In this document: one piece after another, positions 13,598 through 37,663 of the stretch | Position numbering within the stretch: the stretch's first letter is position 1 | How the letters are laid out: every line of letters begins with the position of its first letter | Assembly: GCA_913776615.1 (NCBI GenBank) | Contig: CAJYPK010000005.1 | Span: forward strand, 124,001-188,000 | Direction: 5' to 3' | Length of the DNA: 64,000 nt | Origin: an uncultured Hymenobacter sp. | Lineage (GTDB): Bacteria > Bacteroidota > Bacteroidia > Cytophagales > Hymenobacteraceae | Notes under the pieces: generated by a model | What the model was told of the DNA's origin: nothing | The model's database searches: none | Seen by the model: the letters and a program-made list of their open reading frames with translations, nothing else | Position numbers and translations under genes: made by a program

Positions 13598-13624
13598 CTG
13601 TTTTTAGAAGTGGTTTAGAGAATC

Positions 13625-13718
13625 TTGTCATACTGAGCTTGCCGAAGCATCTCGCGTGCTGTACTAACTATCTCATCAGACAGTGCGAGCGAGATGCTTC
13701 GGCAAGCTCAGCATGACA
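13625..13718. repeat. GCATCTCGC palindromic repeat, copy 1
   Basis: The 30-base arm 13625-13654 (begins TGTCATACTGAGCTTGCCGA) is inverted at 13689-13718 with one mismatch, around a 34-base spacer. The same arm recurs at 36055-36144. Located between the permease and DUF92 stop codons, so it could serve both as a 3' structure. Confidence 0.9.
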
Positions 13719-13780
13719 GGCATGATGGAACGAGGATTAGCCCAACAGCTCTTCAGCTAGCAAAGCGCAGTTACCAGTGG

Positions 13781-14503
13781 CTAACCCAGCCAGTGCCCGA
13801 GCCCGCCAGCCACCAGCGCCCCGGTCAGGGTATTGAGAAAATTAACCGCGTTGTTGCCGAGGTAGCCGCGCCGCTCCAGCGTGGCCCCCAGCACCGAGTC
13901 GGCCAGGTTGCCGGCCGTACCCGCCACCAGCAGCCACCCGAAGGCCGTGCCCCAGCCTGCACCCAGGCAATAGGCAGTTGCCAGTACGGCGGTGCCAGCC
14001 AGTCCCAGCGCGGTACCTTCCAGGCTCACCACGCCGTTGAGGCCGCGCGTATCGGGCCGCAGGGTGAGGATGTTGTAGTAGCGCCGGCCGTACACGTTGC
14101 CCAGTTCCGAGGCCAGCGTATCGGCCGTGGCGGCGGCGAAGCTGCCCGCCAGCATCAGGCGGGCCAGGGGCGCGGCGGGCGGCCAGTGCCAGGCCAGCAG
14201 TCCGAGCAGGCCCGCCACGCCGGCATTGGCGACTACCTGCCCGGCGGTGCGCCGGCCCCGGTTTTCTTCGGCCAGGCCGAGGCGGCGCTTTTCAGCCACC
14301 CGCCAGCCCGAAGCCGCCGTTCCCAGGCCAAAAAATAAAGCCAGCAGCGCCAGCCCGGTAAAGCCGCCGCCCAGGAAAATGAGCAGCCCCAGGCCGCCAC
14401 CCGTCCAGGCCGCGGCCATCGTCAGCTTGCCCGCCCGCACGCTGTACACCATCCCCAGGCCCAGCAGCCCCGCTACCAGGCCGAGGCGAAATAAGTCAGT
14501 CAT
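13781..14503 (-). CDS. DUF92 integral membrane protein
   Basis: 240 residues, strongly hydrophobic, with about six or seven membrane segments. ADTLASELGNVYGRRYYNI, RGLNGVVSLEGTALGLAGT and GNLADSVLGATLERRGYLGNNAVNFLNTL are the hallmarks of DUF92. That family includes plant VTE6 phytyl-phosphate kinase and eukaryotic TMEM19, so a prenyl-phosphate kinase activity is possible but not shown here. Same strand as the downstream-lying GNAT gene with a 38-base gap (the GNAT gene is upstream). Confidence 0.88.
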   Translation of the reverse strand: MTDLFRLGLVAGLLGLGMVYSVRAGKLTMAAAWTGGGLGLLIFLGGGFTGLALLALFFGLGTAASGWRVAEKRRLGLAEENRGRRTAGQVVANAGVAGLLGLLAWHWPPAAPLARLMLAGSFAAATADTLASELGNVYGRRYYNILTLRPDTRGLNGVVSLEGTALGLAGTAVLATAYCLGAGWGTAFGWLLVAGTAGNLADSVLGATLERRGYLGNNAVNFLNTLTGALVAGGLGHWLG

Positions 14504-23993: not shown

Positions 23994-25496
23994 ATGAAAA
24001 AGCTGCTTCCCGTACTAGGCGCGTCGCTGCTGACCACGGCGGCCCTAGCCCAGTCGGCCCCGCCGCCCGCTACGCCGCAGTTTCGTCCGGCCTACCATTT
24101 TACGCCCACCGCCCACTGGATGAACGACCCCAACGGGATGGTGTACTACCAGGGCACTTACCACCTATTTTTTCAGTACTACCCCGGCGGCATGGTGTGG
24201 GGGCCGATGCACTGGGGGCATGCCACCAGCCCCGATATGGTGCGCTGGCAGGAGCAGCCCATCGCGTTGTATCCCGACAGCCTGGGCTACATTTTCTCGG
24301 GCTCGGCGGTAGTGGATGCCAACAACACGGCGGGCTTCGGTAAGAATGCGTTGGTGGCCATTTTCACCCATCACAACCCCAAGCTGGAGAAAACCGACTC
24401 CGAGCACGGCCAAAATCAAAGCCTGGCCTACAGCCTCGACGCCGGCAAAACCTGGATGAAATACCGGGGTAACCCGGTACTGAAAAGCCCCGGTATCGTC
24501 GATTTCCGTGACCCCAAGGTGACGTGGAACGCGCAGCTCAACAAGTGGCTGATGACGCTGGCTACGAAGGACCGCATTACGTTTTACTCCTCGCCCAACC
24601 TCAAGACCTGGACCAAGGAAAGCGAATTTGGCGAGAAGCTGGGGGCGCACGGGGGCGTGTGGGAATGCCCCGATTTGTTTCCGCTCGCGCTGAACGGCAA
24701 GACTTACTGGGTACTCATCGTCAACCTCAACCCCGGTGGCCCCAACGGCGGCTCGGCCACGCAGTACTTCGTGGGCAATTTTGATGGGCACACCTTTACG
24801 CCGCTCAACGACAAGACGAAGTGGGCCGACTACGGCCCCGACGAGTACGCCGGCGTAACCTGGGAGAATACCGCGCCCCGTCGCCTGTTCCTGGGCTGGA
24901 TGAGCAACTGGGAGTACGGCAACCAGGTGCCCACCTCGCCCTGGCGCAGCGCCATGACCATCCCGCGCGAGCTGGGACTGCGCCAGGAGGGCCAGGAGAT
25001 TTACCTTACCTCACAGCCCGCCGCCGAGGTCGGCCGGCTGGCCACTACGCCCACCACGCTCCCCAACGTGGCCGTGAAAAATACCGTGGACCTCACCCCG
25101 CGCCTCAAATCCACCACTGCCAAGCGTCGCCTTACGCTGCGTACCGCGCAGCTGGCGGGCTTCGAATTGGTGCTGGGCAACGCGGCCGGCGAGGAGCTGG
25201 TAATCGGCTACGACGCGGCGGCTAAGCAGTATTTCATCGACCGCAGCAAGTCGGGCAACGTCAGTTTCAGCCCCAAATTCACCGGCCGCAGCACGGCCCC
25301 GCGCCTGACTACGGCCCCCGGGGCCGACCTCACGCTGTACTGCGATGCGGCCTCGGTGGAGCTATTCGCCGACCACGGGCTGACGGCCATGACGGCAATT
25401 TTCTTTCCGACCCAGCCGATCACAACCGTGCGTTTGCGCTCGGCCCAGGGGCTGACTTTTCAGGAAATCAGCAACGCCGCGCTGGGGGGCAAGTAG
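23994..25496 (+). CDS. secreted GH32 fructan hydrolase (levanase/inulinase type)
   Basis: 500 residues with a signal peptide (ends ALAQS, about residue 21). Five-bladed propeller domain of glycoside hydrolase family 32: nucleophile Asp in HWMNDPNGMVYYQGTYHLFF, transition-state Asp in VDFRDPKVTW, acid/base Glu in WECPDLF. The C-terminal beta-sandwich follows from about residue 340. Such enzymes release fructose from levan, inulin or sucrose. The signal peptide favours extracytoplasmic use and the convergent SGLT transporter may take up the sugar. The stop codon is inside the REP-like unit D1. Confidence 0.93.
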   Translation: MKKLLPVLGASLLTTAALAQSAPPPATPQFRPAYHFTPTAHWMNDPNGMVYYQGTYHLFFQYYPGGMVWGPMHWGHATSPDMVRWQEQPIALYPDSLGYIFSGSAVVDANNTAGFGKNALVAIFTHHNPKLEKTDSEHGQNQSLAYSLDAGKTWMKYRGNPVLKSPGIVDFRDPKVTWNAQLNKWLMTLATKDRITFYSSPNLKTWTKESEFGEKLGAHGGVWECPDLFPLALNGKTYWVLIVNLNPGGPNGGSATQYFVGNFDGHTFTPLNDKTKWADYGPDEYAGVTWENTAPRRLFLGWMSNWEYGNQVPTSPWRSAMTIPRELGLRQEGQEIYLTSQPAAEVGRLATTPTTLPNVAVKNTVDLTPRLKSTTAKRRLTLRTAQLAGFELVLGNAAGEELVIGYDAAAKQYFIDRSKSGNVSFSPKFTGRSTAPRLTTAPGADLTLYCDAASVELFADHGLTAMTAIFFPTQPITTVRLRSAQGLTFQEISNAALGGK

Positions 25497-25559
25497 CGCG
25501 GTTTATAGTCCGCGTTGCATCCGGGCCGCTCGCAGCGCGGATTACCAAGTCCGCGCTAC
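25493..25559. repeat. REP-like inverted pair D1
   Basis: Left unit: GTAG then hairpin CGCGGTTTATAGTCCGCG (25493-). Right unit: the inverted form, ending CTAC at 25559, whose reverse complement is GTAGCGCGGACTTGGTAATC and so on. The TAG stop of the GH32 gene (25494-25496) is in the foot. Same family as 62554-62619. Confidence 0.9.
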
Positions 25560-25561
25560 AT

Positions 25562-25601
25562 AAAAAAAGAGGACCCTAGCCGCGCCAGGGTCCTCTTTTT
25601 T
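25562..25601. terminator. bidirectional terminator
   Basis: AAAAAAGAGGACCCT pairs with AGGGTCCTCTTTTTT. It lies between the convergent GH32 and sugar-transporter genes, with A/T runs on both sides. Confidence 0.92.
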
Positions 25602-25626
25602 AGCTTAACTGAAAGCAATTCGTCGC

Positions 25627-27315
25627 CTACCAGAACACGGTGTAGAGCATCGTGATGATGGCCAGCACCACCACCGAGCCGATGGCGAAGCTGCGGTTGG
25701 GGCGGAACATGCTCGAATCGATTTCCAAGCCCTTGGGGTTGGTGCGGCCGTGGCCCTGGATGAGGCTGATAATCACCATGCCGATGATGCAGAACACGAA
25801 CACGAAGCCCATGCGGTCGAGGAAGGGAATCTCGTAGAGGCTGCCGCCTTCGGGCTTCACGGCAAAGCCGAACGGGGCCAGGAACGAGAGGTCCATCATG
25901 CCGGGCAGGAACTTGAGGACGATGGAGAACAGGAAGCCGCCGATAGTGGCGAAGAGCGCGGCGCTGGAAGTCGTTTTCTTCCAGAAGAAGCCCAGGATGA
26001 ACATAGCGAAGATGCCCGGCGACACGAAGCCCGTGTACTCCTGAATGAACTGGAAGCCCCCCTTCTTATCGATGCCCAGGTGCGGCGCGATGAGAATACC
26101 CAGCAGCATGGCCACGACCACCGAGATTTTGCCCACGGCCACCAGCTTCTTCTCCGAAGCGTTCTCGTTCAGCACTTTCTTGTACACGTCGAGCGTGAAG
26201 ATGGTCGCAATGGAGTTGGCTTTGCCGGCCAGCGAGGCGACTACGGCGGCGGTGAGCGCCGCGAATGACAGACCTTTCAGACCCACGGGCAAAATGTTGA
26301 GCAGCACCGGGTAGGCGCGGTCGGGGTTGAGGTCGGCCCCCGTGCCAAACTCATTGGCACCGAATACATTCTCCTTGTACAGAACGAAGGCGGCGATGCC
26401 GGGCAGCACCACAATCACGGGCATCAGCATCTTGAGGAAGGCGGCGAAGAGCAGGCCACCGCGGGCGGTGGGCAGGTCGGCGCCGAGGGCGCGCTGCGTG
26501 ATGTACTGGTTGCAGCCCCAGTAGTTTAGGTTCACAATCCAGAGGCCGCCGAGCAGTACCGTGAGGCCGGGCAGGTCGAGGTAGTTGGGGCTGTCGCGCT
26601 TCACAATCATGTGGAAGTGGTCGTTGGCCTGGCCCATCAGCAGGTTGAAGCCGTTGAAGACGCCCGTGGTGCCGTAGTGCTCCGATACCAGGTTGAGGGC
26701 CAGGTAAGTAGTGGCTAGGCCGCCCAGGATGAGGAAGAACACCTGGATAACGTCGGTGAAGCCAATCACCTTCATGCCACCCAGCGTGATGATGACGGCG
26801 GCGATGGCCAGCGCGTACATGCAGAACGTGAGGTTGAGGCCCGAGACGCTGCTCACGGCAATGGCCCCCAGGTAGAGAATCGAGGTCAGGTTGACCACCA
26901 CGTACAGGGCCAGCCAGAAGATGGCCATGATCATGGCCACCGTGCCGTTGTAGCGCTGGTGCAGAAACTGCGGCATGGTGAAGATTTTATTCTTCAGGTA
27001 CACCGGGATGAAGAACGTGGCCACGATGATGAGCGTCACCGAGGCCATCCACTCGTAGGCCGAGATGGCCAGGCCGATTTTGAAGCCCGAGCCGGCCATG
27101 CCCACAAACTGCTCGGCCGAGATGTTGGAGGCAATCAGCGACGAGCCGATGGCCCACCACGTAAGCGAGCCTTCGGCCAGGAAGTAGTCTTTGGAATCGC
27201 CCTCGATAGTGCCGTCGTGGCCCGTCTTGCGGTTGTAAATCCAGATACCGTAGCCGGCAACTATCAAAAAGTAAACAAAAAAGACTATGTAGTCTAACGT
27301 AGCCAGCTTGTGCAT
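25627..27315 (-). CDS. SGLT-type sodium/sugar symporter (SSS family)
   Basis: 562 residues with about 14 membrane segments. Typical solute-sodium symporter features: LDYIVFFVYFLIVAGYGIWIY at the N-terminus, the core WAIGSSLIASNISAEQFVGMAGSGFKIGLAISAYEW, and LTAAVVASLAGKANSIATIFTLDVYKKV in the middle. Related to sodium/glucose cotransporters. Start ATG at 27315, since upstream residues are not membrane-like. Convergent with the GH32 gene, sharing one terminator, which suggests uptake of a released sugar; inference. Confidence 0.93.
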   Translation of the reverse strand: MHKLATLDYIVFFVYFLIVAGYGIWIYNRKTGHDGTIEGDSKDYFLAEGSLTWWAIGSSLIASNISAEQFVGMAGSGFKIGLAISAYEWMASVTLIIVATFFIPVYLKNKIFTMPQFLHQRYNGTVAMIMAIFWLALYVVVNLTSILYLGAIAVSSVSGLNLTFCMYALAIAAVIITLGGMKVIGFTDVIQVFFLILGGLATTYLALNLVSEHYGTTGVFNGFNLLMGQANDHFHMIVKRDSPNYLDLPGLTVLLGGLWIVNLNYWGCNQYITQRALGADLPTARGGLLFAAFLKMLMPVIVVLPGIAAFVLYKENVFGANEFGTGADLNPDRAYPVLLNILPVGLKGLSFAALTAAVVASLAGKANSIATIFTLDVYKKVLNENASEKKLVAVGKISVVVAMLLGILIAPHLGIDKKGGFQFIQEYTGFVSPGIFAMFILGFFWKKTTSSAALFATIGGFLFSIVLKFLPGMMDLSFLAPFGFAVKPEGGSLYEIPFLDRMGFVFVFCIIGMVIISLIQGHGRTNPKGLEIDSSMFRPNRSFAIGSVVVLAIITMLYTVFW

Positions 27316-27934
27316 AGAGTGGGAAAAAACGAATGGAAAACGAAAGTAGGACAAATATCACCTTGCCGGGCTACGCAAACGATTGCGCAGCTAAAATTGA
27401 CTGTCGGTAATTCACGCGCTATTACTCGCCGGCGGCGAGGAGAGGCATAGATACTGCGTTGGTTACGAGGTAGAAAAGGTCAGTCCCAACGGTTGTTCTA
27501 TGGTTCTCGCGCGTTGTAAGCTCGGGACCGGGCGGCGCGAATAGTTGGCTACCAGGGCGGCAGCCGAACCAGCAGTGGCCTCCGGTGTACCCGGCAGGGG
27601 GCGGCGCCTCGGTACTGCCTTGATTGGCCTGGAGATGGGGGCCAGCGGAGAGTTGGCTGTTTGCTCGGCGGGTGTAGCTCAACCCTAGGCGTGCCACGTT
27701 GAGGTCGGCGTAGAGGATGGCTTGCAGGATTGGCCGTTGCCAGGGTTGGGATTTCAGGCCGGACTAGCCCGGTCGCCAGGGCCAGCCGCAAAAGGTAAGA
27801 CCAGGAGGGTCTAAAGAGCTGGGTTAAACCACTCTCTGAAAGGTAAAATAACCGGCACGTTATCCGCGTTGGGCGGCGGCGGCTTGCGAGCAGCGTGCCG
27901 TCGTATTTTTGTAGGCATACCTACCTTGTAGTTT
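27316..27934. other. 619-base stretch, no supported gene
   Basis: Between divergent genes. On the minus strand an open frame (27422-27697) encodes 91 residues with a beta-rich look (ARLGLSYTRRANSQLSAGPH, TTVGTDLFYLVTNA); further upstream a similar-sounding stretch lies in a different frame. This could be a decayed barrel-protein end, but support is weak and I do not call a gene. The promoter for the next gene is at 27904-27911. Confidence 0.35.
27904..27911 (+). promoter_or_regulatory. sugar-cluster promoter -7 motif
   Basis: TATTTTTG matches the -7 consensus TAnnTTTG and ends 23 bases before the GTG start at 27935. If real it would drive the sugar gene cluster. Confidence 0.5.
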
Positions 27935-28993
27935 GTGAAAAAAGCGCTTTACCTCATCGGCTCGCCCAACCAAACCACCCAGATGCACCGCGTGGCGCAG
28001 CTGCTCGAAGATGAGTACGAGCCGTATTTCAGCCAGCTGTATTACGATGGCTGGATGCGCGGCTTTTACAAGTGGCTGCTGCGCAATAAAATTCTGGATA
28101 AAACTATCGTGCACGGCCAGATCAAGGAGAAGGCCGACCGCTACATCGAGCAGCACCAGCTGCGGCGCGACTTCGAGAACCGCGAGTACGGTCACGACTA
28201 CGACCTCGTGGTGTGCTGCTCCGACATCGTGGTGCCCTGGCCGCTGCTGGCCCGCACCAAGTCGGTGTTCGTGCAGGAGGGCATGACCGACCCCATGCAC
28301 CTGTGGGCGCGGCTCGTGAAGCGCTTCACCAACTTCCCCATCCTGGCCATCGGCACCTCGCTCAACGGTATGAACAACTGCTGCGACGTGTACTGCGTGG
28401 CCTCGCCGGGCTACGCCGAGCACTTCGAGCAAATCGGGGTCGATAAGGATAAGCTGGTCGTGACGGGCATTCCCAACTTCGACGACATCGCCAAGCTGCG
28501 CAACAATAGCTTCCCGCTCCGCGACTACGTGCTGGTGGCGACTACCGACATGCGCGAGACCTTCCGGCCCGACAACCGCAAGAAGTTCATTGAGCACGCC
28601 ACGCGCATCGCCGCCGGCCGGCCCATGATTTTCAAATTTCATCCCAACGAGGAGATGGACCGCGCCACGGCCGAAGTGCAGAAATACGCACCCCCCGGCA
28701 CGCTCATCTACACCAGCGGCAACACCGAGGAGATGATTGCCAACTGCGTGGAACTCATCACCCAGTACAGCACCGTGGCCTACGTGGGGCTGGCGCTGGG
28801 CATTCCGGTGCACTCGTATTTCGACGTGGACGACCTCAAGCGCAAGCTGCCCATCCAGAACGGCGGCACCAGTGCCCGCCGCATTGCCGACATTTGCCGG
28901 CAGTTTGGACGGTTCCAGGGTAGCGGCCCGGATTTTTTGCGGCAGTACAAACCCGCGGATACTCCCCAGTTGGCTCCCGTAACCGCCGCGTAG
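27935..28993 (+). CDS. GT-B-fold glycosyl/glycerophosphotransferase-like protein
   Basis: 352 residues. Features of the GT-B fold used by CDP-glycerol glycerophosphotransferases, polysialyltransferase-like and UDP-GlcNAc 2-epimerase-like proteins: N-terminal KKALYLIGSPNQTTQMHRV, DLVVCCSDIVVPWPLLARTKSVFVQEG, VVTGIPNFDD, then IFKFHPNEEM (HP element) and LITQYSTVAYVGLALGIPV, a donor-site S-T-x-x-x-E/Y-x-x-x-x-x-P-V pattern. First gene of the sugar cluster, so it may transfer the CMP-sugar made by the downstream genes. Starts with GTG. Exact family is uncertain. Confidence 0.7.
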   Translation: MKKALYLIGSPNQTTQMHRVAQLLEDEYEPYFSQLYYDGWMRGFYKWLLRNKILDKTIVHGQIKEKADRYIEQHQLRRDFENREYGHDYDLVVCCSDIVVPWPLLARTKSVFVQEGMTDPMHLWARLVKRFTNFPILAIGTSLNGMNNCCDVYCVASPGYAEHFEQIGVDKDKLVVTGIPNFDDIAKLRNNSFPLRDYVLVATTDMRETFRPDNRKKFIEHATRIAAGRPMIFKFHPNEEMDRATAEVQKYAPPGTLIYTSGNTEEMIANCVELITQYSTVAYVGLALGIPVHSYFDVDDLKRKLPIQNGGTSARRIADICRQFGRFQGSGPDFLRQYKPADTPQLAPVTAA

Positions 28994-29063
28994 GGGGAAC
29001 GGAACTTTTGAGCCGCGCTTGTTACGCTTTGTGCTGATTTTGTTACGTTTTATACTGTAAGCG

Positions 29064-29858
29064 ATGCTCACTCTCATACAGGCCCGGCGCGGCTCGTCGC
29101 GCCTGCCCGACAAAGTCAGTCTGGATTTATGCGGCCAGCCGCTGCTGGTGCGGCAGGTGGAGCGGGTGCGGCTAGCCAGCCGGGCGGGTCGGGTGGCCGT
29201 CATCACCACTACCGACCCGGCCGACGACGCGCTGGCGGACCTCTGCCAGCAGCACGGCATCGACGTGTTTCGGGGTAATGCGCTCGATCTGCTCGACCGC
29301 CACTACCAGGCCGCGCTGCACTTTGGCGAGACGGAGGCCGTGGTGAAAATTCCCAGCGACTGCCCGCTTATCGACCCGGCCGTTATCGATAAAGTATTTA
29401 AAGTGTACGATGACAATAAGGGGCAGTACGACTTCGTCAGCAACCTGCACCCTGCCACCTATCCCGATGGCAACGACGTGGAGATAATGACCTTCGCGGC
29501 GCTCGAAACGGCCTGGCGCGAGGCCACCCGCCCGCTGGAGCGCGAGCACACCACACCCTTCTTCTGGGAAAACCCCGAGCGCTTTCGGCTGGCCAACGTG
29601 ACTTGGGAAACGGGCCTCGACTACTCGATGTCGCACCGCTTCACCATCGATTACGCGGCCGACTATGAGTTTATAAAAGCCGTGTACGAAGCGCTTTACC
29701 CCGCCAACCCGGCTTTCAGCCTGGCCGACATCCTGACTTTATTAAAACAAAGGCCAGACATTTACGCCTTGAATGCCGACCTGGCCGGCGTGAACTGGTA
29801 CCGTAATCACCTCGACGAACTCAAAACCGTGGACGCGGGCAATACAAAGTCTTACTAA
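29064..29858 (+). CDS. SpsF-like cytidylyltransferase (CMP-sugar synthetase family)
   Basis: 264 residues. MLTLIQARRGSSRLPDKVSL is the nucleotide-binding start of the SpsF/NeuA/KdsB family (Q-A-R-x-G-S-x-R-L-P-x-K). PSDCPLIDPAVIDKV, DFVSNLHPATYPDGNDVE and HRFTIDYAADYEFIKAVYE follow the SpsF order. The family transfers CMP to 3-deoxy-ulosonic sugars, activating them for transfer. The NeuB-like and KdsC-like genes downstream support that. The stop codon TAA (29856-29858) abuts the inverted repeat at 29858. Confidence 0.87.
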   Translation: MLTLIQARRGSSRLPDKVSLDLCGQPLLVRQVERVRLASRAGRVAVITTTDPADDALADLCQQHGIDVFRGNALDLLDRHYQAALHFGETEAVVKIPSDCPLIDPAVIDKVFKVYDDNKGQYDFVSNLHPATYPDGNDVEIMTFAALETAWREATRPLEREHTTPFFWENPERFRLANVTWETGLDYSMSHRFTIDYAADYEFIKAVYEALYPANPAFSLADILTLLKQRPDIYALNADLAGVNWYRNHLDELKTVDAGNTKSY

Positions 29859-29947
29859 GCTTCTAGTTGTTAGCCGCTAGCTGTTAGCTTTTTCCGCGCG
29901 AAAAGGCCGCAGCTAACAGCTAATAGCTAGCAGCTACTAGCTAAAAA
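29858..29947. repeat. intergenic inverted repeat, TTAGCTGTTAGC word family, copy 1
   Basis: The left arm (29858-29893) contains TTAGCCGCTAGCTGTTAGCT; the right arm (29911-29947) is its near complement AGCTAACAGCTAATAGCTAG and so on. Each arm is a degenerate tandem of TTAGCTG words. The repeat fills the gap from the SpsF stop to the transketolase start. Second copy at 63700-63882. Confidence 0.85.
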
Positions 29948-29948
29948 C

Positions 29949-30806
29949 ATGACTCCCGAAAAAAAACAAGCGCTTTCCGAGCTCGCCCTGCGCGTGCGTG
30001 AGCACATCGTGCGCCTCAGCACCGATGGCGGCTGCTTCACCGGTGCCTCGCTGAGCTGCGCCGACTTGCTGGTGTACCTCTACGCCGACTTCCTCAATGT
30101 GAACCCGGGCAACCTGCAAGACCCCGAGCGCGACTACCTGTTCCTGAGCAAGGGCCACGACGTGCCGGCCCTCTACGGCACCTTCGCCGAGCTGGGCTTC
30201 ATGCCCAAGGAGCGGCTGGCCAATCACTTGAAGGCCAGCGACAGCATCTACTGGCACCCCAACCGCAACGTGCCGGGCGTGGAGTTTCACTCGGGCTCGC
30301 TGGGCCACCTGCCGAGCGTGGCGCTGGGCGTGGCCCTCGATGCGCGTCTGCGCGGCCAAAACCAAAAGGTCATCGTCATCACCGGCGACGGCGAGCTCAA
30401 CGAGGGTACCTGCTGGGAGGCTCTGCTGGTGGCCAGTGCCCACAAGGTCAACAACCTCACCATCGTGGTGGACCGCAACCACTTCCAGGCCAACATCGCC
30501 ACCGAAGACCTCATCCCGCTGGAGCCGCTGGCCCCCAAGTTCGAGGCGTTCGGCGCGGTCGTGAAGCGCATCGACGGCCACGATTTTACGGCTTTGGAAG
30601 AAGCCTTCACCGCCCTGCCCTTCAGCCCGGACAAGCCGTCGGTCATCATCTGCGACACGGTGCGCGGCCGGGGCCTGCCCAGCATCGAGCGCCGCGCCGA
30701 CCGCTGGTTCTGCAATTTTAGCAGCGCCGAAATCACCGAGCTGCTGAAGGAGCTGCACAGCCAGGAGGCTACTACCTTGACTAGTGAAACCTTGACGGTT
30801 AGATAG
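29949..30806 (+). CDS. transketolase N-terminal subunit
   Basis: 285 residues. Thiamine-diphosphate-binding half of a split transketolase: FLSKGHDVPALYG, FHSGSLGHLPSVALGVALDA, the cofactor motif VITGDGELNEGTCWEALLVA near residue 140 (G-D-G, 28-residue spacing to N), and FQANIATEDLIPLEPLAPKFEAFG. Split transketolases transfer two-carbon units between sugars; in sugar clusters they may serve as specialised enzymes rather than pentose-phosphate housekeeping. The C-terminal half follows 210 bases downstream, after a repeat-rich gap. Confidence 0.93.
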   Translation: MTPEKKQALSELALRVREHIVRLSTDGGCFTGASLSCADLLVYLYADFLNVNPGNLQDPERDYLFLSKGHDVPALYGTFAELGFMPKERLANHLKASDSIYWHPNRNVPGVEFHSGSLGHLPSVALGVALDARLRGQNQKVIVITGDGELNEGTCWEALLVASAHKVNNLTIVVDRNHFQANIATEDLIPLEPLAPKFEAFGAVVKRIDGHDFTALEEAFTALPFSPDKPSVIICDTVRGRGLPSIERRADRWFCNFSSAEITELLKELHSQEATTLTSETLTVR

Positions 30807-30845
30807 CGGCCGGCTTATATCTGGGTGGTTGCTTGCCAGGCGTAG

Positions 30846-30890
30846 CGCCTCACCCCCCGGCCCCCTCTCCGAAAAGGAGAGGGGGAGCCT
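30846..30890. repeat. hairpin repeat in the transketolase gap
   Basis: CCCCCTCTCC-GAAAA-GGAGAGGGGG (30861-30885) is a perfect 10-base stem flanked by GC-rich sequence. Such elements are often dispersed in Bacteroidota genomes; only one copy is here. Further along the 210-base gap are GCCCGCC / GGCGGGC (30953-30976) and the direct words AATCCGTTAAATCCGTTAAAT just before the next start. Confidence 0.7.
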
Positions 30891-31016
30891 GACGATATTA
30901 AGACTATCCAGCTTGTAAAAGCCGGGCATCTGCCCCAAACTCTCGCATAGCCAGCCCGCCGCCGAAGGCAGGCGGGCGTATCCGCGAAATCCGTTAAATC
31001 CGTTAAATCTGCGGTC

Positions 31017-31970
31017 ATGAATTACGAACAGCTTATCCACGAAACCGCCCTGGCCGATGAGCGCCTGCTGGTGATGACGGCCGAAAACCGCGCCCTGATT
31101 CGCAACCTGCCCGGCCCGCTGGGGGCCCGCTTCATCGACACCGGCATCACGGAGCAAACCATGATTGGGGCCGCCGCCGGGCTGGCCCTGCGCGGGCGCG
31201 TGCCGGTGGTGCACGCGCTGGCGACCTTCCTCACGCTGCGGGCGTTCGAGTTTATCCGCACCGACGTGGGTATTCCCAACTTGCCGGTGAAAATCAGTGC
31301 CTTCGTCCCTGGCTTTTTGTCGGATGGCAACGGCCCCACGCACCAGGCCATCGAAGACGTGGCGCTCATGCGCGGCATTCCCGGCATGACGGTTTTCGCC
31401 CCCGCCGACGAGGCCGACATGCTGGCCATGCTGCCCGCTATCTGGGCCTCGCCCAGCCCCGCCTACCTGCGCGTGAATACCCGCCCGGGCACCTACCAGC
31501 ATGAGCCCTTCGTGATGGGCAAAGCGGAAATCGTGAGCGAGGGTAAAGACGTGACCATTCTCACCTACGGCATGCTCTTCGAGCAAGCCCTCATTGCCAA
31601 AGATTTGCTCACCGAAGCCGGCTATTCGGTGGGCCTCGTCAACCTCCGCAGCCTCAAGCCCCTCGATACCGAGGCCGTGCTGAACGTGGTACGCGGCGGC
31701 TCGCTCATCGTCACCCTGGAAGACCACTTCCAGACCGGCGGCCTCTACTCCATCCTGGCCGAGCTGCTGCTGGAGCACGAACTGACGGCCAAGGTGCTGC
31801 CGCTGGCCCTCAAGGAGCGCTGGTACAAGCCCGGCCTGCTGAGCGAAGTGCTCGAATACGAGGGTTTTACCGGCCAGCACATCGCCCGCCGCATCGGCGA
31901 GCGCCTGGGCGACGGTGCCCATACCTTCGGGGCCAAGACCAAGGTGGTCGAAAACGAGTTCGCGGAGTAA
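31017..31970 (+). CDS. transketolase C-terminal subunit
   Basis: 317 residues. The pyrimidine-binding half: RFIDTGITEQTMIGAAAGLALRG carries the catalytic Glu that activates thiamine diphosphate; PTHQAIEDVALMRGIPGMTVFAPADE and YLRVNTRPG follow, then a C-terminal domain (VGLVNLRSLKPLDTEAVL). It pairs with the subunit at 29949-30806. Together they equal about one complete transketolase, with both active-site halves intact, so the split is natural rather than a frameshift. Confidence 0.93.
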   Translation: MNYEQLIHETALADERLLVMTAENRALIRNLPGPLGARFIDTGITEQTMIGAAAGLALRGRVPVVHALATFLTLRAFEFIRTDVGIPNLPVKISAFVPGFLSDGNGPTHQAIEDVALMRGIPGMTVFAPADEADMLAMLPAIWASPSPAYLRVNTRPGTYQHEPFVMGKAEIVSEGKDVTILTYGMLFEQALIAKDLLTEAGYSVGLVNLRSLKPLDTEAVLNVVRGGSLIVTLEDHFQTGGLYSILAELLLEHELTAKVLPLALKERWYKPGLLSEVLEYEGFTGQHIARRIGERLGDGAHTFGAKTKVVENEFAE

Positions 31971-31974
31971 GTTT

Positions 31975-32097
31975 TTTTAAATGTGAAGATGGGTGGAATG
32001 TGGGAATGTGAAAATATTCTTGAGCAGGAAGCCGGCAGTGATAGCCAACTAATTCATTTTCACATTTCTCCATTCAGCACATTTCTACATTCAACAG
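31975..32097. repeat. intergenic inverted repeat, ATGTG word family, copy 2
   Basis: The left arm (31980-32015) reads AATGTGAAGATGGGTGGAAT and so on; the right arm (32053-32097) reads CATTTTCACATTTCTCCATT and similar, the loose complement. It fills the gap between the transketolase stop and the aminotransferase ATG at 32098. Confidence 0.75.
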
Positions 32098-33392
<1,295 letters not shown>

Positions 33393-33396
<4 letters not shown>

Positions 33397-33519
33397 CGCC
33401 AAGCTCTGGCTTGGCGTATCGCCGCGCCGCGGCGAAGGCGGGGCCGGGCACGACTGCCCGGCCTCGTTTATTTTCCTTTCTCAACCCTGCCGCCTCGCCA
33501 AGCTGGAGCTTGGCGTTAC
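33393..33519. repeat. REP-like inverted pair C
   Basis: GTAA then hairpin CGCCAAGCTCTGGCTTGGCG (from 33393); inverted unit ending TTAC at 33519. A GCCGGGCA/TGCCCGGC stem lies inside. The TAA stop of the aminotransferase (33394-33396) is in the foot, and the SDR ATG is 3 bases past the right end, so the pair fills the intergenic gap exactly. Confidence 0.9.
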
Positions 33520-33522
33520 GAT

Positions 33523-34329
33523 ATGAATTTCTTCGACTTAACCAACAAAACGGCCATCGTTACCGGGGCTTGCGGCCTCATCGGCCAGAAGCACTGCGAA
33601 GCCCTGGCCCTGGCCGGGGCCAACGTGGTTGTGGCCGACCTTAACCTCGACAAGGCCCGCGAGGTGGCCGCCGGCCTGCCCGGCGGCATTCACCTGCCGC
33701 TGGCCGTGGACGTGACCTCGCCCGAGTCGCTGGCCGCCGCTCGCGATACCATCATCGCACACTTCGGCCACATCGACGTGCTGGTGAACAATGCCGCCAT
33801 CAACGACATGTTCGAGAACCCGGCGCTGGCCGCCGACCTCAGCAAGTTTGAGAACTTCCCGCTGGCTACCTTCACCAAAGTGTTGGAAGTGAACGTGACC
33901 GGTATCTTCCTGGCTGCCCAGGTATTCGGGACGCCGATGGCCGAGCAGGGGAGTGGCTCCATCATCAACGTGGCCAGCACCTACGGCATCGTGGGGCCTG
34001 ATCAGAGCATCTACCGCAACGAGGCTGGGGAGCAAACTTTTTACAAGTCCCCGTCTTACCCCATGACCAAGGGCGCGGTGGTCAACTTCACCCGCTACCT
34101 GGCCGCATACTGGGGCAACAAGGGCGTGCGCGTGAATACGCTCTCCCCCGGTGGCGTCGAAAACAGCCAGGATGCCTTCTTCGTGAAGCAGTACAGCGCC
34201 AAAACGCCGCTGGGCCGCATGGCCGCCCCGACCGACTACCAAGGCGCGGTGGTGTTCCTCGCCTCCGACGCCTCGGCCTACATGACGGGGGCCAACCTGG
34301 TGGTAGATGGCGGCTGGACAGCCATTTAG
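33523..34329 (+). CDS. short-chain dehydrogenase/reductase
   Basis: 268 residues. Rossmann start TAIVTGACGLIGQKHCEALA (TGxxGxIG), DVLVNNAAIND, the catalytic Ser in NVASTYG, and Y179-xxx-K183 in SPSYPMTKGAVVNFTRYLAA. The C-terminal VNTLSPGGVENSQDAFFVK and VVDGGWTAI are normal for classical SDRs. It would reduce or oxidise a sugar or precursor with NAD(P). Its place in the cluster and the Asp-containing VVADLN after the second strand suggest preference for NAD(H); the substrate is not known. Confidence 0.92.
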   Translation: MNFFDLTNKTAIVTGACGLIGQKHCEALALAGANVVVADLNLDKAREVAAGLPGGIHLPLAVDVTSPESLAAARDTIIAHFGHIDVLVNNAAINDMFENPALAADLSKFENFPLATFTKVLEVNVTGIFLAAQVFGTPMAEQGSGSIINVASTYGIVGPDQSIYRNEAGEQTFYKSPSYPMTKGAVVNFTRYLAAYWGNKGVRVNTLSPGGVENSQDAFFVKQYSAKTPLGRMAAPTDYQGAVVFLASDASAYMTGANLVVDGGWTAI

Positions 34330-34406
34330 CCCGACGTATAAATTAGATAACCTGCGCTGCCGCCGATTTTGTAGTAAATTCGGAGAAGTTTTCACTGAGC
34401 CCCTTT

Positions 34407-34934
34407 ATGAAGCACGCCGATCTCGTTGCTAAAGCCCGCCGTATCAAGCTTGTACTCACCGATTGCGACGGCGTGCTCACCGATGGCGGCGTATATTACG
34501 GCGAAGCCGGCGAGGTACTCAAGCGCTTCAACATCCGCGACGGCATGGGTGTGGAGCGCCTGCGCGCCGTGGGCGTCGAAACCGGTATCGTGACCGGCGA
34601 GCGCTCGCCCTCGGTGCAGAAGCGCGCCGAAAAGCTGAAAATCACCGAGCTGCACCTGGGCATTAAGGACAAGGCCCCGCTGCTGGGTGAGATTTTGACC
34701 CGTACCGGCCTTACGGCTGAGCAGGTGGCTTTTATTGGCGACGATACCAACGACGTAGCTATTTTGGGCCTGGTGGGGCTGGCCGCCTGCCCCGGCGACG
34801 CCACTATTTTTGCCCGTGAGGCCGCCGACTATCGCTGCCAGGCCTTCGGCGGCCAGGGAGCCTTCCGCGAGCTGGCCGAGCTGATTATCAGCTGCCAGGG
34901 CGGGGCGCCGCTGCCCGACCGCGGCTCGGAATAG
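34407..34934 (+). CDS. KdsC-like HAD-family sugar phosphatase
   Basis: 175 residues, typical of KdsC. HAD motif I LTDCDGVLTDG with Asp19 and Asp21, then VETGIVTGERSPSVQKRAEKL (motif II Thr), and motif IV GDDTNDVAIL. KdsC removes the 8-phosphate of Kdo-8-phosphate; KdsC-like enzymes also act in nonulosonic-acid pathways. With the NeuB-like gene next to it, it probably dephosphorylates the condensation product. No cap domain is present, as in KdsC tetramers. Confidence 0.9.
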   Translation: MKHADLVAKARRIKLVLTDCDGVLTDGGVYYGEAGEVLKRFNIRDGMGVERLRAVGVETGIVTGERSPSVQKRAEKLKITELHLGIKDKAPLLGEILTRTGLTAEQVAFIGDDTNDVAILGLVGLAACPGDATIFAREAADYRCQAFGGQGAFRELAELIISCQGGAPLPDRGSE

Positions 34935-34938
34935 TTTT

Positions 34939-35129
34939 ATTAATGTGGGAAAGGTGAGAATGTAGAAATGTGAAAAGGCTAGTTGGGCAAATGCACAACG
35001 GGGCCACGAGTAGCGGAAAATAAAAACCGACTTACTTCGTCATCACTTCTAAGCCGCCGAACGGCGGCGATTCTTCCCACCGCTCTTCCCACGCATTGTC
35101 ACATCTTTCACATTTCCCACATTAACCAG
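34939..35129. repeat. intergenic inverted repeat, ATGTG word family, copy 3
   Basis: The left arm (34943-34978) reads ATGTGGGAAAGGTGAGAATG and so on; the right arm (35095-35125) reads TTGTCACATCTTTCACATTT and similar. In between is lower-GC sequence without a gene. It fills the gap between the KdsC-like stop and the NeuB-like start. Confidence 0.75.
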
Positions 35130-35132
35130 AAG

Positions 35133-36017
35133 ATGTCCGTAGTTCAAATCAAGAAGAACCGCGCTATTGGCCCCGGCCAGCCGTGCTACATCATTGCCGA
35201 AATCGGCATCAACCACAACGGCTCGCTCGACCTGGCCAAGCAGCTCATCGACGCGGCCGTGACGGCCGGCGCCGATGCGGTGAAGTTCCAGAAGCGCACC
35301 CCCGAGCTGTGCGTGCCCAAGGACCAGTGGGAAAAGATGCGCGATACCCCCTGGGGCCGCATGAGCTACATCGACTACAAGCGCAAGACCGAGTTTGGCC
35401 AGGCTGAGTACACGGTGATCGACGACTACTGCAAGGCCAAGGGCATCGACTGGTTTGCCTCGTGCTGGGATGAGCCGTCGGTCGATTTCATGGAGCAGTT
35501 CCAGCCCGTGCTCTACAAGATGGCCAGCGCCTCGCTCACCGATAAGCCCCTCCTCGACCGCGTGCGTGCCACCGGCCGCCCACTCATGCTGAGCACCGGC
35601 ATGAGCACCCAGCAGGAAATCACCGATGCCGTAGCCTACGTGGGCCTCGACAACCTGATGATTGCCCATTCGACTTCGGCCTACCCCTGCCCCCCGCAGG
35701 AGCTGAACCTGCGCATGATTCAAACCCTGCAAGCGCAGTTCCCCGACACGCCCATCGGCTATTCGGGCCACGAAACCGGCCTGAGCACCACCGTAACGGC
35801 CGTGGCCCTGGGCGCGACGTTCGTGGAGCGCCACTTCACCCTCGACCGCGCCATGTGGGGTTCCGACCACGCCGCCAGCGTGGAGCCGGGTGGCCTGGCT
35901 AAGCTCGTGCGCGACATCCGCGATACCGAAGCCGGCCTCGGCGACGGCGTGAAAGTGGTGTACGAGAGCGAGAAAGAGCCCCTGCGCCGCCTGCGCCGCG
36001 AGGTGACGGCGGCGTAA
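35133..36017 (+). CDS. NeuB-like 3-deoxy-ulosonic acid synthase, no SAF domain
   Basis: 294 residues. YIIAEIGINHNGSLDLAKQL, GADAVKFQKRTPELCV, YKMASASLTDKPLLDRV, LMLSTGMSTQQEITDA and IGYSGHETGLSTTVTAVALGATFVERHFTLDRAMWGSDHAASVEP cover the whole PEP-condensing TIM barrel of N-acetylneuraminate synthases. The family usually has about 340-350 residues and ends in an antifreeze-like SAF domain; this one stops right after the barrel at REVTAA. It probably condenses PEP with an aldose made upstream. The ATG at 35133 precedes the conserved start. Confidence 0.9.
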   Translation: MSVVQIKKNRAIGPGQPCYIIAEIGINHNGSLDLAKQLIDAAVTAGADAVKFQKRTPELCVPKDQWEKMRDTPWGRMSYIDYKRKTEFGQAEYTVIDDYCKAKGIDWFASCWDEPSVDFMEQFQPVLYKMASASLTDKPLLDRVRATGRPLMLSTGMSTQQEITDAVAYVGLDNLMIAHSTSAYPCPPQELNLRMIQTLQAQFPDTPIGYSGHETGLSTTVTAVALGATFVERHFTLDRAMWGSDHAASVEPGGLAKLVRDIRDTEAGLGDGVKVVYESEKEPLRRLRREVTAA

Positions 36018-36248: not shown

Positions 36249-37283
36249 ATGCTAGAGCCGATAAGCGAGTTTTACCACAGCCTCAACGCGGTGGGGCGCA
36301 CTACCATGATAACGACGCCCATCCTGCTGCTGGCGGTGGCGGTGCTGCTAATCCTGGAGCGCAAATTTCCTTATCGCAAGGGGCTGCCGTTCTTCCGCGA
36401 GGGCTTGTTCGTGGATCTGTTCTGGTACACGCTGGTGCAGAGTTACTTTCTGCAAATTTTGATTTTCGGGTTCATCATCGCGCCGCTGGCGGCCCATTTC
36501 GGGGCGCGGTTTCACCTGGTGAGTAGCTGGCCGGTGGTGGCGCAGGTGGCGTTTTTCGTCGTCACCCACGATTTTTACATCTACTGGTTTCATCGTTTCC
36601 AGCATAGCAGCGCGTTTTTCTGGCGCACCCACGAGGCGCACCATTCGGGCAAGCAGGTGGATTGGCTGGCCGGCTCGCGCTCGCACGCCGTGGAAATTAT
36701 CATCAACCAGACCATCGAGTTTGCCCCCATTATCCTGCTGGGGGCTAATCCGGTGGTGGTGCCCATCAAGGCCCTGATCGATGCCGTGTGGGGCATGTAC
36801 ATCCACGCCAACATCGACGTGAAATCGGGTAAGCTGCAATACTTTATCAACGGTCCCGAGATGCACCTCTGGCACCACGCCGACCATGAGGAAGTGTACT
36901 ACGCCAATTTCTCGACCAAATTTGCGGTCTGGGACTGGCTGTTCGGCACCGCCTTTTTGCCCCAGAACCGCAAGCCCGAGCGTTGGGGCCTGCCCTACGC
37001 TTTCCCCAAGGATTACTTTTCGCAGCACGCCTTTTCGGTGATGCGCTTCGACGAAAAAGCCTTGGCCGAGCGCTCGGCGGCCTTCCGCGCCTACCACGGC
37101 GTGCGCTGGCGCGTGCTGAGCTGGCTCGGTGAGCGCGTACCCGCCGCCAAGGTGCTGCAAGGCTGGGAAGTGCCCGAAGAGGTGCACGAGACCGTGCCCG
37201 CGCCCCGCCCCGGCGGCAACCCCACGGCCGCCGAGGCCGTTGCCCCAGAATCTCCCCGCCCCGCCGTAACCGCCGCGCCTTGA
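36249..37283 (+). CDS. sterol desaturase/fatty acid hydroxylase family protein
   Basis: 344 residues with about four membrane segments and the diiron-type His clusters HDFYIYWFHRFQH, RTHEAHHSGKQ and MHLWHHADHEEVYYANF. This family adds hydroxyl groups or double bonds to sterols, fatty acids or carotenoids; in Bacteroidota it is often involved in lipid A, carotenoid or hopanoid-type lipid changes. The exact substrate cannot be told. The C-terminus is Pro/Ala-rich. Its stop TGA overlaps the TTG start of the SMR gene, so the two are probably coupled. Confidence 0.9.
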   Translation: MLEPISEFYHSLNAVGRTTMITTPILLLAVAVLLILERKFPYRKGLPFFREGLFVDLFWYTLVQSYFLQILIFGFIIAPLAAHFGARFHLVSSWPVVAQVAFFVVTHDFYIYWFHRFQHSSAFFWRTHEAHHSGKQVDWLAGSRSHAVEIIINQTIEFAPIILLGANPVVVPIKALIDAVWGMYIHANIDVKSGKLQYFINGPEMHLWHHADHEEVYYANFSTKFAVWDWLFGTAFLPQNRKPERWGLPYAFPKDYFSQHAFSVMRFDEKALAERSAAFRAYHGVRWRVLSWLGERVPAAKVLQGWEVPEEVHETVPAPRPGGNPTAAEAVAPESPRPAVTAAP

Positions 37284-37663
37284 CACTCAGCTTTAATCCT
37301 GCCTGGCTTTACCTGTTGCTCGCTTCCGTGATGGAGGTGTGCTGGAACTACAGCCTCAAATACACGAGCGTAGCCAAAATAAAGGCCATCGACTGGCCGC
37401 ATTTCTTTTCTTCCTCGGCCGGTATTACGACGTTGGCCCCGGCCATCGGCTACGTGGGTTTTGGGGTGGCCAACGTGTTTTTCTTCTCCAAGGCGCTCAA
37501 CGTTATCCCGGCTTCCACCGCGTTTGCCATCTGGATGGGTATTGCCCTGGTCGGCATCAAGCTCGTGGATACGCTGGTGCTGAAGGAGCCCTTTCAGTGG
37601 GTGCACGTCTTTTACATCGGCTGCATTCTGGTGGGTATTATCGGGCTGAAGCGCACGAGCTGA
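37280..37663 (+). CDS. small multidrug resistance-like transporter
   Basis: 127 residues, four membrane helices. LLLASVMEVCWNYSLKYT contains the essential proton- and substrate-coupling Glu of SMR transporters (Glu14 of EmrE), here at residue 19. AFAIWMGIALVGIKLVDTLVLKEPF and YIGCILVGIIGLKR complete the SMR fold. The TTG start overlaps the upstream stop in TTGA. SMR proteins export quaternary ammonium compounds, guanidinium or, in some cases, lipid-linked sugars; pairing with the desaturase-like gene may hint at a lipid role. Confidence 0.82.
   Translation: MTLSFNPAWLYLLLASVMEVCWNYSLKYTSVAKIKAIDWPHFFSSSAGITTLAPAIGYVGFGVANVFFFSKALNVIPASTAFAIWMGIALVGIKLVDTLVLKEPFQWVHVFYIGCILVGIIGLKRTS

Follow-up and report, generated by a model that had tools for sequence, protein, structure and literature searches.

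Ten neighbouring genes in a 64,000-nucleotide stretch of DNA from an uncultured Hymenobacter sp. (hereafter the window) form one conserved cassette. We propose, giving the proposal an even chance, that a NeuB-family synthase and a HAD phosphatase within it are the predicted source of Kdn, and that a short-chain dehydrogenase (SDR), a split transketolase and an aminotransferase tailor this sugar to an amino-ulosonic acid, which would probably be activated with CMP and attached to a membrane or surface acceptor. The first-pass annotation had read the locus as leading, independently of the UDP-GlcNAc pathways, to a 3-deoxy-ulosonic sugar activated with CMP, by way of PEP condensation, dephosphorylation, activation and transfer; family membership and conservation support both the class of product and this set of reactions. 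We know of no such sugar from these hosts. If the proposal is correct, environmental bacteria of several phyla would modify completed Kdn to obtain an amino sugar akin to sialic acid, with no need of UDP-GlcNAc, and transketolase and transamination chemistry would join the nonulosonic-acid repertoire. The cassette would also hold a natural counterpart to transketolases engineered for unphosphorylated substrates, and many genes called sialic-acid synthase or glutamate-semialdehyde aminomutase would be misnamed.

A ten-gene cassette with a conserved order

Eight of the genes lie within 27935..36017, all on the + strand and separated by short gaps. The families first assigned to them agree with profile matches and, for the first open reading frame, with a predicted GT-B fold. 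This GT-B-fold protein (GT; 27935..28993), a putative transferase, is followed by an SpsF-type cytidylyltransferase of the CTP_transf_3 family (29064..29858; PF02348, 1.7e-24; closest solved chain the cytidylyltransferase 6oew), the N-terminal half of a split transketolase (TKN; 29949..30806; PF00456, 2e-24; best solved match 6yak) and its C-terminal half (TK-C; 31017..31970; PF02779, 6.3e-27, and PF02780, 2.9e-25; 6yaj). There follow a class-III PLP aminotransferase resembling GSA aminomutase (GSA; 32098..33396; PF00202, 1.6e-45), the SDR (33523..34329; PF13561, 1.3e-48; best NCBIfam match of the gluconate 5-dehydrogenase type), a KdsC-type HAD phosphatase with Glu65 and Lys76 (34407..34934; KdsC-type HAD, 1.6e-41; TIGR01670) and a NeuB synthase (35133..36017; PF03102, 1.8e-77). 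The NeuB frame is open from 34983, and its start is most likely the ATG at 35133 because homologues are about 294 residues long. The eight genes are thus present as first described, but they are not the full unit: a membrane fatty-acid-hydroxylase family gene (FAH; 36249..37283; PF04116, 2.4e-27) and a gene for an SMR/EamA-type small membrane transporter (SMR; 37280..37663; PF00893, 4.5e-14), both on the + strand and overlapping by 4 bases, extend it through 36249-37663 to ten.

Conservation was assessed in the best 80 of 586 confirmed stretches, a set that includes 30 Streptomyces loci and has 25 loci carrying the transketolase. The order GT-SpsF-TKN-TKC-GSA-SDR-HAD-NeuB is found in 23 of these 25, FAH accompanies 22 and SMR 18, and HAD was not found in 5 of them. 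The comparison of neighbourhoods that had been suggested for this cluster bears it out: the arrangement goes beyond chance, the gene order recurring in Bacteroidota, Ignavibacteria and Chloroflexi records. Fusions also occur: HAD with NeuB in eight loci, SpsF with TKN at locus L011, and SpsF with GSA at locus L079. Among the matches listed for the L079 fusion, 116 of 120 homologues have both Pfam domains.

At nine loci (L029, L030, L049, which is the same as L201, L051, L079, L199, L200, L202 and L203) NeuB and the aminotransferase are present, and the space separating the latter from SpsF contains no transketolase. In the four genomes of this kind with a clean search, the only transketolases found, if any, were full-length enzymes; the sole split pair in the L079 genome is 35% identical. 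GT, SpsF and GSA sequences did not separate according to the presence of the transketolase, a result that speaks against the transketolase step altering the sugar drastically. In one family the cassette genes do not lie together, and the stretches fetched there showed no GT, SpsF or cluster-type SDR. A metallophosphoesterase gene, with no match at the transketolase-bearing loci examined, adjoins eight of the nine transketolase-less loci (it was not seen at L079, where the contig is cut) and also adjoins two lone NeuB genes.

NeuB and its phosphatase point to Kdn as a probable product

The NeuB of the window is 64-66% identical to a Streptomyces NeuB that is the sole NeuB in 3 of 3 Streptomyces genomes searched. 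Streptomyces, Chlorobi and Chloroflexi loci that have neither a cluster-type transketolase nor a cluster-type aminotransferase carry a NeuB of this clade, at 63-67% identity to the window protein, together with a phosphatase. In the NeuB alignment 79 positions are invariant in 81 sequences and only 8 consistently distinguish the cluster proteins from the Streptomyces group, with 9 of the 80 loci belonging to no group and entering the invariant count alone. The protein falls below the cut-offs for both NeuB_NnaB (261.8 against 399.65) and PseI (203.7 against 340.25), and a profile search found the NeuB domain alone, with no C-terminal SAF domain. A second NeuB is encoded elsewhere in the host genome.

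The phosphatase passes TIGR01670 (141.8 bits, cut-off 106.95), and its best NCBIfam match is the Kdn-9-phosphate phosphatase equivalog NF058599, at 156.9 bits below the cut-off of 180. Its E65 and K76 correspond in the alignment to the positions mutated to alanine in 4hgq/4hgr, the solved Bacteroides relative, and among cluster-type HAD rows, a set that includes two from the window itself, the Glu is kept in 29 of 29 and the Lys in 28 of 29; we presume a functional role for this pair in the Bacteroides enzyme. Kdn has been described as a component of Streptomyces walls, along with a gene region for teichulosonic acid (PMC11481543, PMC13011467). Because NeuB is close to that of Streptomyces, whose walls carry Kdn, and the HAD residue pair is kept, NeuB and HAD most likely make Kdn from mannose-6-phosphate, with no need of the transketolase or aminotransferase. 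Since same-clade NeuB proteins occur without those two enzymes, NeuB would yield Kdn-9-phosphate and the additional enzymes would act later.

Nested occurrence of the cassette enzymes

Samples of 150 host-family and 345 phylum genomes, each drawn from larger groups, were searched at thresholds of 1e-100 (family) and 1e-90 (phylum) for NeuB, 1e-80 for TK-C and 1e-120 for GSA. In the host-family sample, the 28 of 150 genomes that carry NeuB are precisely those that carry TK-C (a raw count that ignores kinship). Across the phylum sample, again ignoring kinship, NeuB is present in 123 genomes and the aminotransferase in 47, all 47 with NeuB, and 37 of 38 genomes with TK-C also have both partners. 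The TK-C of the single exception has seven internal stops. In the 345 genomes, transketolases without internal stops (37) are thus nested inside the aminotransferase set (47), and this inside the NeuB set (123). Ten phylum genomes have GSA and no TK-C, and the loci of five were examined. The aminotransferase is absent from 76 of the 123 phylum genomes with cluster-type NeuB; together with the same-clade NeuB-phosphatase pairs that lack both enzymes, this speaks against the earlier suggestion that NeuB receives its aldose from transketolase and aminotransferase.

Altered substrate residues in the split transketolase

Among transketolase loci in the best 80 of 586, the catalytic residues E411 and H473 are kept in 25 of 25 TK-C rows, and H66, H100 and the ThDP aspartate in 24 of 24 TKN rows; the thiamine machinery is intact. 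S385, H461 and D469 are replaced in 25 of 25 (D469 by Asn in the window), H26 in 24 of 24 and, at the aligned columns, R358 in 24 of 25 and R520 in 21 of 25 (4 of 25 retain it); the alignment is gapped around the columns of R358 and S385. By this alignment, most of the residues that hold the sugar phosphate are replaced, and the canonical substrate set is not retained. S385, D469 and R520 are also changed in an E. coli transketolase evolved towards unphosphorylated aldehydes, in the portion of PMC5073344 that describes it.

Aminotransferase, cytidylyltransferase and GT

The aminotransferase passes the Pfam class-III profile (155.9 bits, cut-off 30.5) and lies below the cut-offs for HemL (238.4 against 527.3) and PRK06209 (392.9 against 486). 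K251, which we take to be the PLP lysine, is invariant (16/16). In viral contigs, relatives of this enzyme neighbour those of NeuB and SpsF. SpsF scores 33.6 bits against the KdsB cut-off of 155.2, and a separate KdsB in the host genome scores 221, over that cut-off; we rejected SpsF as the housekeeping Kdo enzyme on these grounds.

Motifs that we presume to be those of bacterial sialyltransferases first suggested a transferase role for GT. The protein has no Pfam match at 1e-3, and its structure model (pLDDT 88.6) is matched best by the folds of NeuC and UDP-GlcNAc 2-epimerases, then by those of glycosyltransferases and TagF/TarL. When matches with E up to 1 are admitted, Epimerase_2 is the commonest, in 22 of 24 members, with Glyphos_transf in 15 of 24; the window protein scores 17.6 bits against the Epimerase_2 cut-off of 30.6. 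We infer that GT is a predicted CMP-sugar transferase of GT-B fold.

A proposed route and its alternatives

Drawing on families, residues and co-occurrence for every step, we suggest that NeuB would condense PEP with mannose-6-phosphate to give Kdn-9-phosphate, from which HAD would strip the phosphate to leave free Kdn. The SDR would then oxidise a hydroxyl of free Kdn, most plausibly at C8, creating the HOCH2-CO-CHOH arrangement that a transketolase can cleave. Acting on this unphosphorylated sugar, the split transketolase would most plausibly remove C8-C9 and leave a C7 aldehyde for the aminotransferase to aminate; where the transketolase gene is absent, the ketone itself would be aminated. 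SpsF would form the CMP-sugar, most likely after tailoring, and GT would transfer it, with FAH likely hydroxylating a lipid partner and SMR perhaps flipping the product across the membrane. A specific carbon-shortening outcome, which we rate as unlikely, is that a transketolase devoid of its phosphate site cuts the last two carbons from C8-oxidised free Kdn and the aminotransferase caps the remainder; the product would be CMP-7-amino-3,7-dideoxy-hept-2-ulosonic acid, an amino sugar of seven carbons that would end up on a membrane lipid.

Other arrangements of the same enzymes were weighed. An AHBA-like logic, as we understand that route, would place transketolase and aminotransferase before NeuB, as makers of an unusual (amino) aldose that NeuB then condenses with PEP. 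The presence of such a combination of enzymes in a single operon and the co-occurrence of TK-C with NeuB fit this order, but NeuB is nearly unchanged in loci and genomes that lack both enzymes, and the sugar-phosphate residues of the transketolase are mostly gone, yet the phosphatase implies a phosphorylated aldose. On the NeuB alignment and the genome nesting we rejected these enzymes as the aldose source, and consider the order improbable. A similarly low probability attaches to a scheme in which NeuB, HAD, SpsF and GT make and transfer ordinary CMP-Kdn, and transketolase and aminotransferase convert a fatty aldehyde into a sphingoid-like 2-amino-1,3-diol lipid finished by SDR and FAH. It would account for FAH and SMR in the cassette; the transketolase changes resemble those reported in the relevant part of PMC5073344 to admit unphosphorylated, non-polar aldehydes, and a Kdn-linked sphingolipid of an alga appears in part of PMC6200933. 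Against it, the aminotransferase of L079 is accompanied by NeuB and SpsF at a locus that showed neither a transketolase nor FAH, SpsF-GSA fusions exist, and in viral contigs it is the aminotransferase relatives that accompany those of NeuB and SpsF.

We see only a slim chance that the cluster makes ordinary CMP-Kdn and that transketolase, SDR and aminotransferase serve a separate, merely co-inherited function. The portion of PMC6200933 on this pathway indicates that CMP-Kdn needs no more than NeuB, HAD and a cytidylyltransferase, and the two gene groups lie apart in some genomes; the perfect nesting across genomes and the fusion of SpsF to both TKN and GSA speak for a shared one. Very improbable, finally, is a NeuC-like UDP-sugar 2-epimerase role for GT with a classical sialic acid as product: the best solved folds and the commonest weak Pfam match would suit it, but the Epimerase_2 score is sub-threshold and Glyphos_transf also matches, NeuB falls far below the NeuB_NnaB cut-off, and aminotransferase, SDR and transketolase would be left without a role.

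Relation to known systems

In searches of the open-licence PMC literature, judged by titles and abstract openings, we recognised no published description of this gene set. Part of PMC6200933 sets out the Kdn route of Bacteroides thetaiotaomicron and Prymnesium parvum, from mannose-6-phosphate and PEP through Kdn-9-phosphate and Kdn to CMP-Kdn. The cassette shares with it a NeuB-family synthase, a KdsC-type phosphatase with the Glu/Lys pair and a cytidylyltransferase, and differs in the SpsF type of the last and in the addition of SDR, class-III aminotransferase, split transketolase, FAH and SMR. With the Streptomyces Kdn (teichulosonic-acid) locus it shares the NeuB clade and the residue pair of the phosphatase domain; at Streptomyces locus L044, unlike in the cassette, the phosphatase is fused to a NeuA-type domain, and the 30 Streptomyces loci among the best 80 of 586 gave no transketolase, GSA or SpsF match.

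In the 8-amino-Kdo route of Shewanella (KdnA/KdnB), a finished ulosonic acid is oxidised, transaminated and then CMP-activated. That idea is common to the proposed pathway, whereas the scaffold there is Kdo, the enzyme families are others and no transketolase takes part. Rifamycin-type AHBA clusters bring together dehydrogenase, aminotransferase, split transketolase, phosphatase and PEP condensation by a DAHP-synthase-type enzyme; the mix is the same here, but with NeuB, which occurs without transketolase and GSA. The best solved match of both transketolase halves is the split enzyme of Carboxydothermus hydrogenoformans (6yaj/6yak), which, unlike the cassette transketolase, keeps the equivalents of H461 and D469.

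The gene unit and its relatives

Eight open reading frames running in one direction from 27935 to 36017 encode a GT-B-fold putative transferase (GT), an SpsF cytidylyltransferase, the two halves of a split transketolase (TK-N and TK-C), a class-III, GSA-aminomutase-like aminotransferase (GSA), an SDR, a KdsC-type phosphatase (HAD) and NeuB, bearing out the arrangement in the first-pass annotation, whose family assignments were upheld by profile searches. The NeuB frame begins at 34983, and the length of its homologues (about 294 residues) fits the ATG at 35133. Profile searches add an FA_hydroxylase family gene (FAH; 36249–37283) and an SMR/EamA-type gene (SMR, a small transporter; 37280–37663), making the unit real and broader than the eight genes originally described. 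Directly upstream, on the opposite strand, lie genes for a GH32 glycosidase and a sodium:solute symporter (23994–27354).

Scanning a genome collection with a NeuB alignment confirmed 586 stretches, of which the 80 best were compared. Both transketolase halves are present in 25 of these 80 loci, and the order GT-SpsF-TKN-TKC-GSA-SDR-HAD-NeuB is conserved, for the genes present, in 23 of the 25 (exceptions, L010 and L014), with FAH in 22 and SMR in 18. GT gave no match at one transketolase-bearing locus (L016) and HAD none at five (L005, L006, L007, L010 and L037); in a Hymenobacter subgroup (L005–L007 plus host-family loci including L095 and L098–L107), the interval from SDR to NeuB gave no phosphatase match. 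The nearest named locus among the 80 is that of H. setariae (NeuB 98% identical), by which the host is, judged from sequence, Hymenobacter-like.

HAD is fused to NeuB in 7 of the 25 loci and also in L023, from Mucilaginibacter aquaedulcis, in which GT-SpsF-TKN-TKC-GSA-SDR-FAH-SMR lie together elsewhere (L161). L011 encodes an SpsF–TK-N fusion and L079 an SpsF–aminotransferase fusion; among the 120 listed homologues of the latter, 116 have both domains. A PhyH-type dioxygenase gene adjoins the L079 fusion (L079:2276–3124), and L022 has a similar ORF (13048–13980) downstream of its cluster. A related aminotransferase also occurs in viral contigs (L167–L185), in most cases close to NeuB-family and SpsF-like matches.

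Nested co-occurrence across genomes

Among 150 genomes of the host family, NeuB (E ≤ 1e-100) and TK-C (E ≤ 1e-80) were each found in 28, and these are the identical 28 genomes. Across 345 genomes of the phylum, NeuB was found in 123, the aminotransferase in 47 and TK-C in 38; NeuB accompanies the aminotransferase in 47 of 47 genomes, and both accompany TK-C in 37 of 38. Hypergeometric probabilities, which ignore relatedness, are 9e-25 for the aminotransferase in NeuB genomes, 1.3e-17 for TK-C in NeuB genomes and 2.4e-39 for TK-C in aminotransferase genomes. The sole exception, G228, has neither partner, and its TK-C match is interrupted by seven internal stops, probably marking a decaying remnant; the stops (contig C118:24008–24892) are two TGA and five TAA. 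One family of the phylum has the transketolase, aminotransferase and NeuB genes, all three, but at separate sites; HAD or FAH is usually found beside NeuB, and no GT, SpsF or cluster-type SDR was seen in the stretches retrieved from that family. The enzymes therefore nest, with NeuB as the core, the aminotransferase occurring with NeuB and the transketolase with both.

NeuB and the phosphatase are predicted to make Kdn

Among the 80 best of the 586 stretches, Streptomyces, Chlorobi and Chloroflexi loci pair a NeuB of the same clade (63–67% identical) with a KdsC-type phosphatase domain and give no TK, SpsF or GSA match; in all three of these loci that were read (L038, L044 and L066), phosphatase and NeuA-type domains form one protein. 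Across the 80 loci and the window, 79 NeuB positions are invariant, and eight consistently distinguish the transketolase-cluster group (n = 25) from the Streptomyces group (n = 30). Each of three Streptomyces genomes searched has one NeuB. Kdn polymers are reported in Streptomyces walls, and a teichulosonic-acid gene region in S. coelicolor (PMC11481543, PMC13011467). We infer that the fetched Streptomyces loci correspond to this region. In the Chloroflexi MAG locus L038 (3719–10958), SDR, NeuA-HAD and NeuB genes are flanked on one side by an ATP-sulfurylase/APS-kinase gene and on the other by a sulfotransferase gene, a neighbourhood that suggests a sulfated Kdn.

The best solved relative of the cluster phosphatase is 3e81, deposited as an acylneuraminate cytidylyltransferase, which we take to be the Bacteroides Kdn-9-phosphate phosphatase. 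The phosphatase scored below its equivalog cut-off in the profile search, a result that counts against the proposed route. It has the Glu and Lys replaced by Ala in deposited variants 4hgq and 4hgr, and these are kept in 54 and 53, respectively, of 54 aligned HAD rows (two being the window's own). Mannose-6-phosphate is described as the substrate of a characterized Kdn-9-phosphate synthase (PMC6200933). Given the NeuB clade, Kdn in Streptomyces, the phosphatase residues and this synthase, the predicted first steps are mannose-6-phosphate + PEP → Kdn-9-phosphate → Kdn.

The transketolase probably acts after the phosphatase

Both transketolase halves match the split Carboxydothermus enzyme best among solved structures. 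Alignment to the host's full-length transketolase as reference shows that all cluster enzymes retain the ThDP aspartate and residues equivalent to H66, H100, E411 and H473. Other positions are changed: H26 in all 24 sequences compared, S385, H461 and D469 in all 25, R358 in 24 and R520 in 21 of these 25, the change of D469 to Asn being clear and those at R358 and S385, in a gapped part of the alignment, less certain. S385, D469 and R520 were changed in an E. coli transketolase evolved from phosphorylated to unphosphorylated aldehydes (PMC5073344). Because these substrate residues are replaced, including positions of the evolved enzyme, the cluster transketolase is probably not a supplier of sugar phosphate; it would fit a phosphate-free sugar or aldehyde, as in a step after the phosphatase.

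Some results count against the proposed scheme. Nine loci with NeuB and the aminotransferase have no transketolase between SpsF and the aminotransferase (L029, L030, L049 (same contig as L201), L051, L079, L199, L200, L202 and L203). Five of their genomes were searched for transketolase: three gave only full-length enzymes, one no match and one a split pair elsewhere, 35% identical. GT, SpsF and the aminotransferase are as close between Ignavibacteria-type loci with and without the transketolase as within each group, and the final sugar may therefore differ little, or these enzymes may accept both. A calcineurin-like metallophosphoesterase gene lies beside eight of the nine (L029:4261–5184, and flanks of L030, L049, L051, L199, L200, L202 and L203) and had no match at the transketolase-bearing loci examined. 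A gene of this kind also adjoins two lone second NeuB genes (L056 and L080).

A candidate pathway

The first-pass annotation placed the transketolase and aminotransferase upstream, as suppliers of a precursor; same-clade NeuB genes without both, together with the replaced transketolase residues, make this most likely wrong. Its broader reading, a CMP-activated ulosonic acid outside the UDP-GlcNAc-derived routes, we judge right. We read the cassette as a variant of the Kdn/nonulosonic-acid kind. In our proposal, the SDR would form a ketone on free Kdn, the transketolase would act on the resulting carbonyl compound without need of phosphate, and the aminotransferase would add an amino group. The product would then be activated by SpsF and transferred by GT, while FAH and SMR would act on a lipid partner. 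In its most specific version, one consistent route among several, C8–C9 would be removed and C7 aminated.

Other ulosonic acid genes in the host

The host genome also encodes a separate KdsB, scoring above cut-off, as well as a second, 349-aa NeuB (contig C9, locus L001), whose adjoining ORF reads by eye as PseG/PseH-like, which suggests a separate pseudaminic-type pathway. The cassette is thus probably a third ulosonic acid route in this host.
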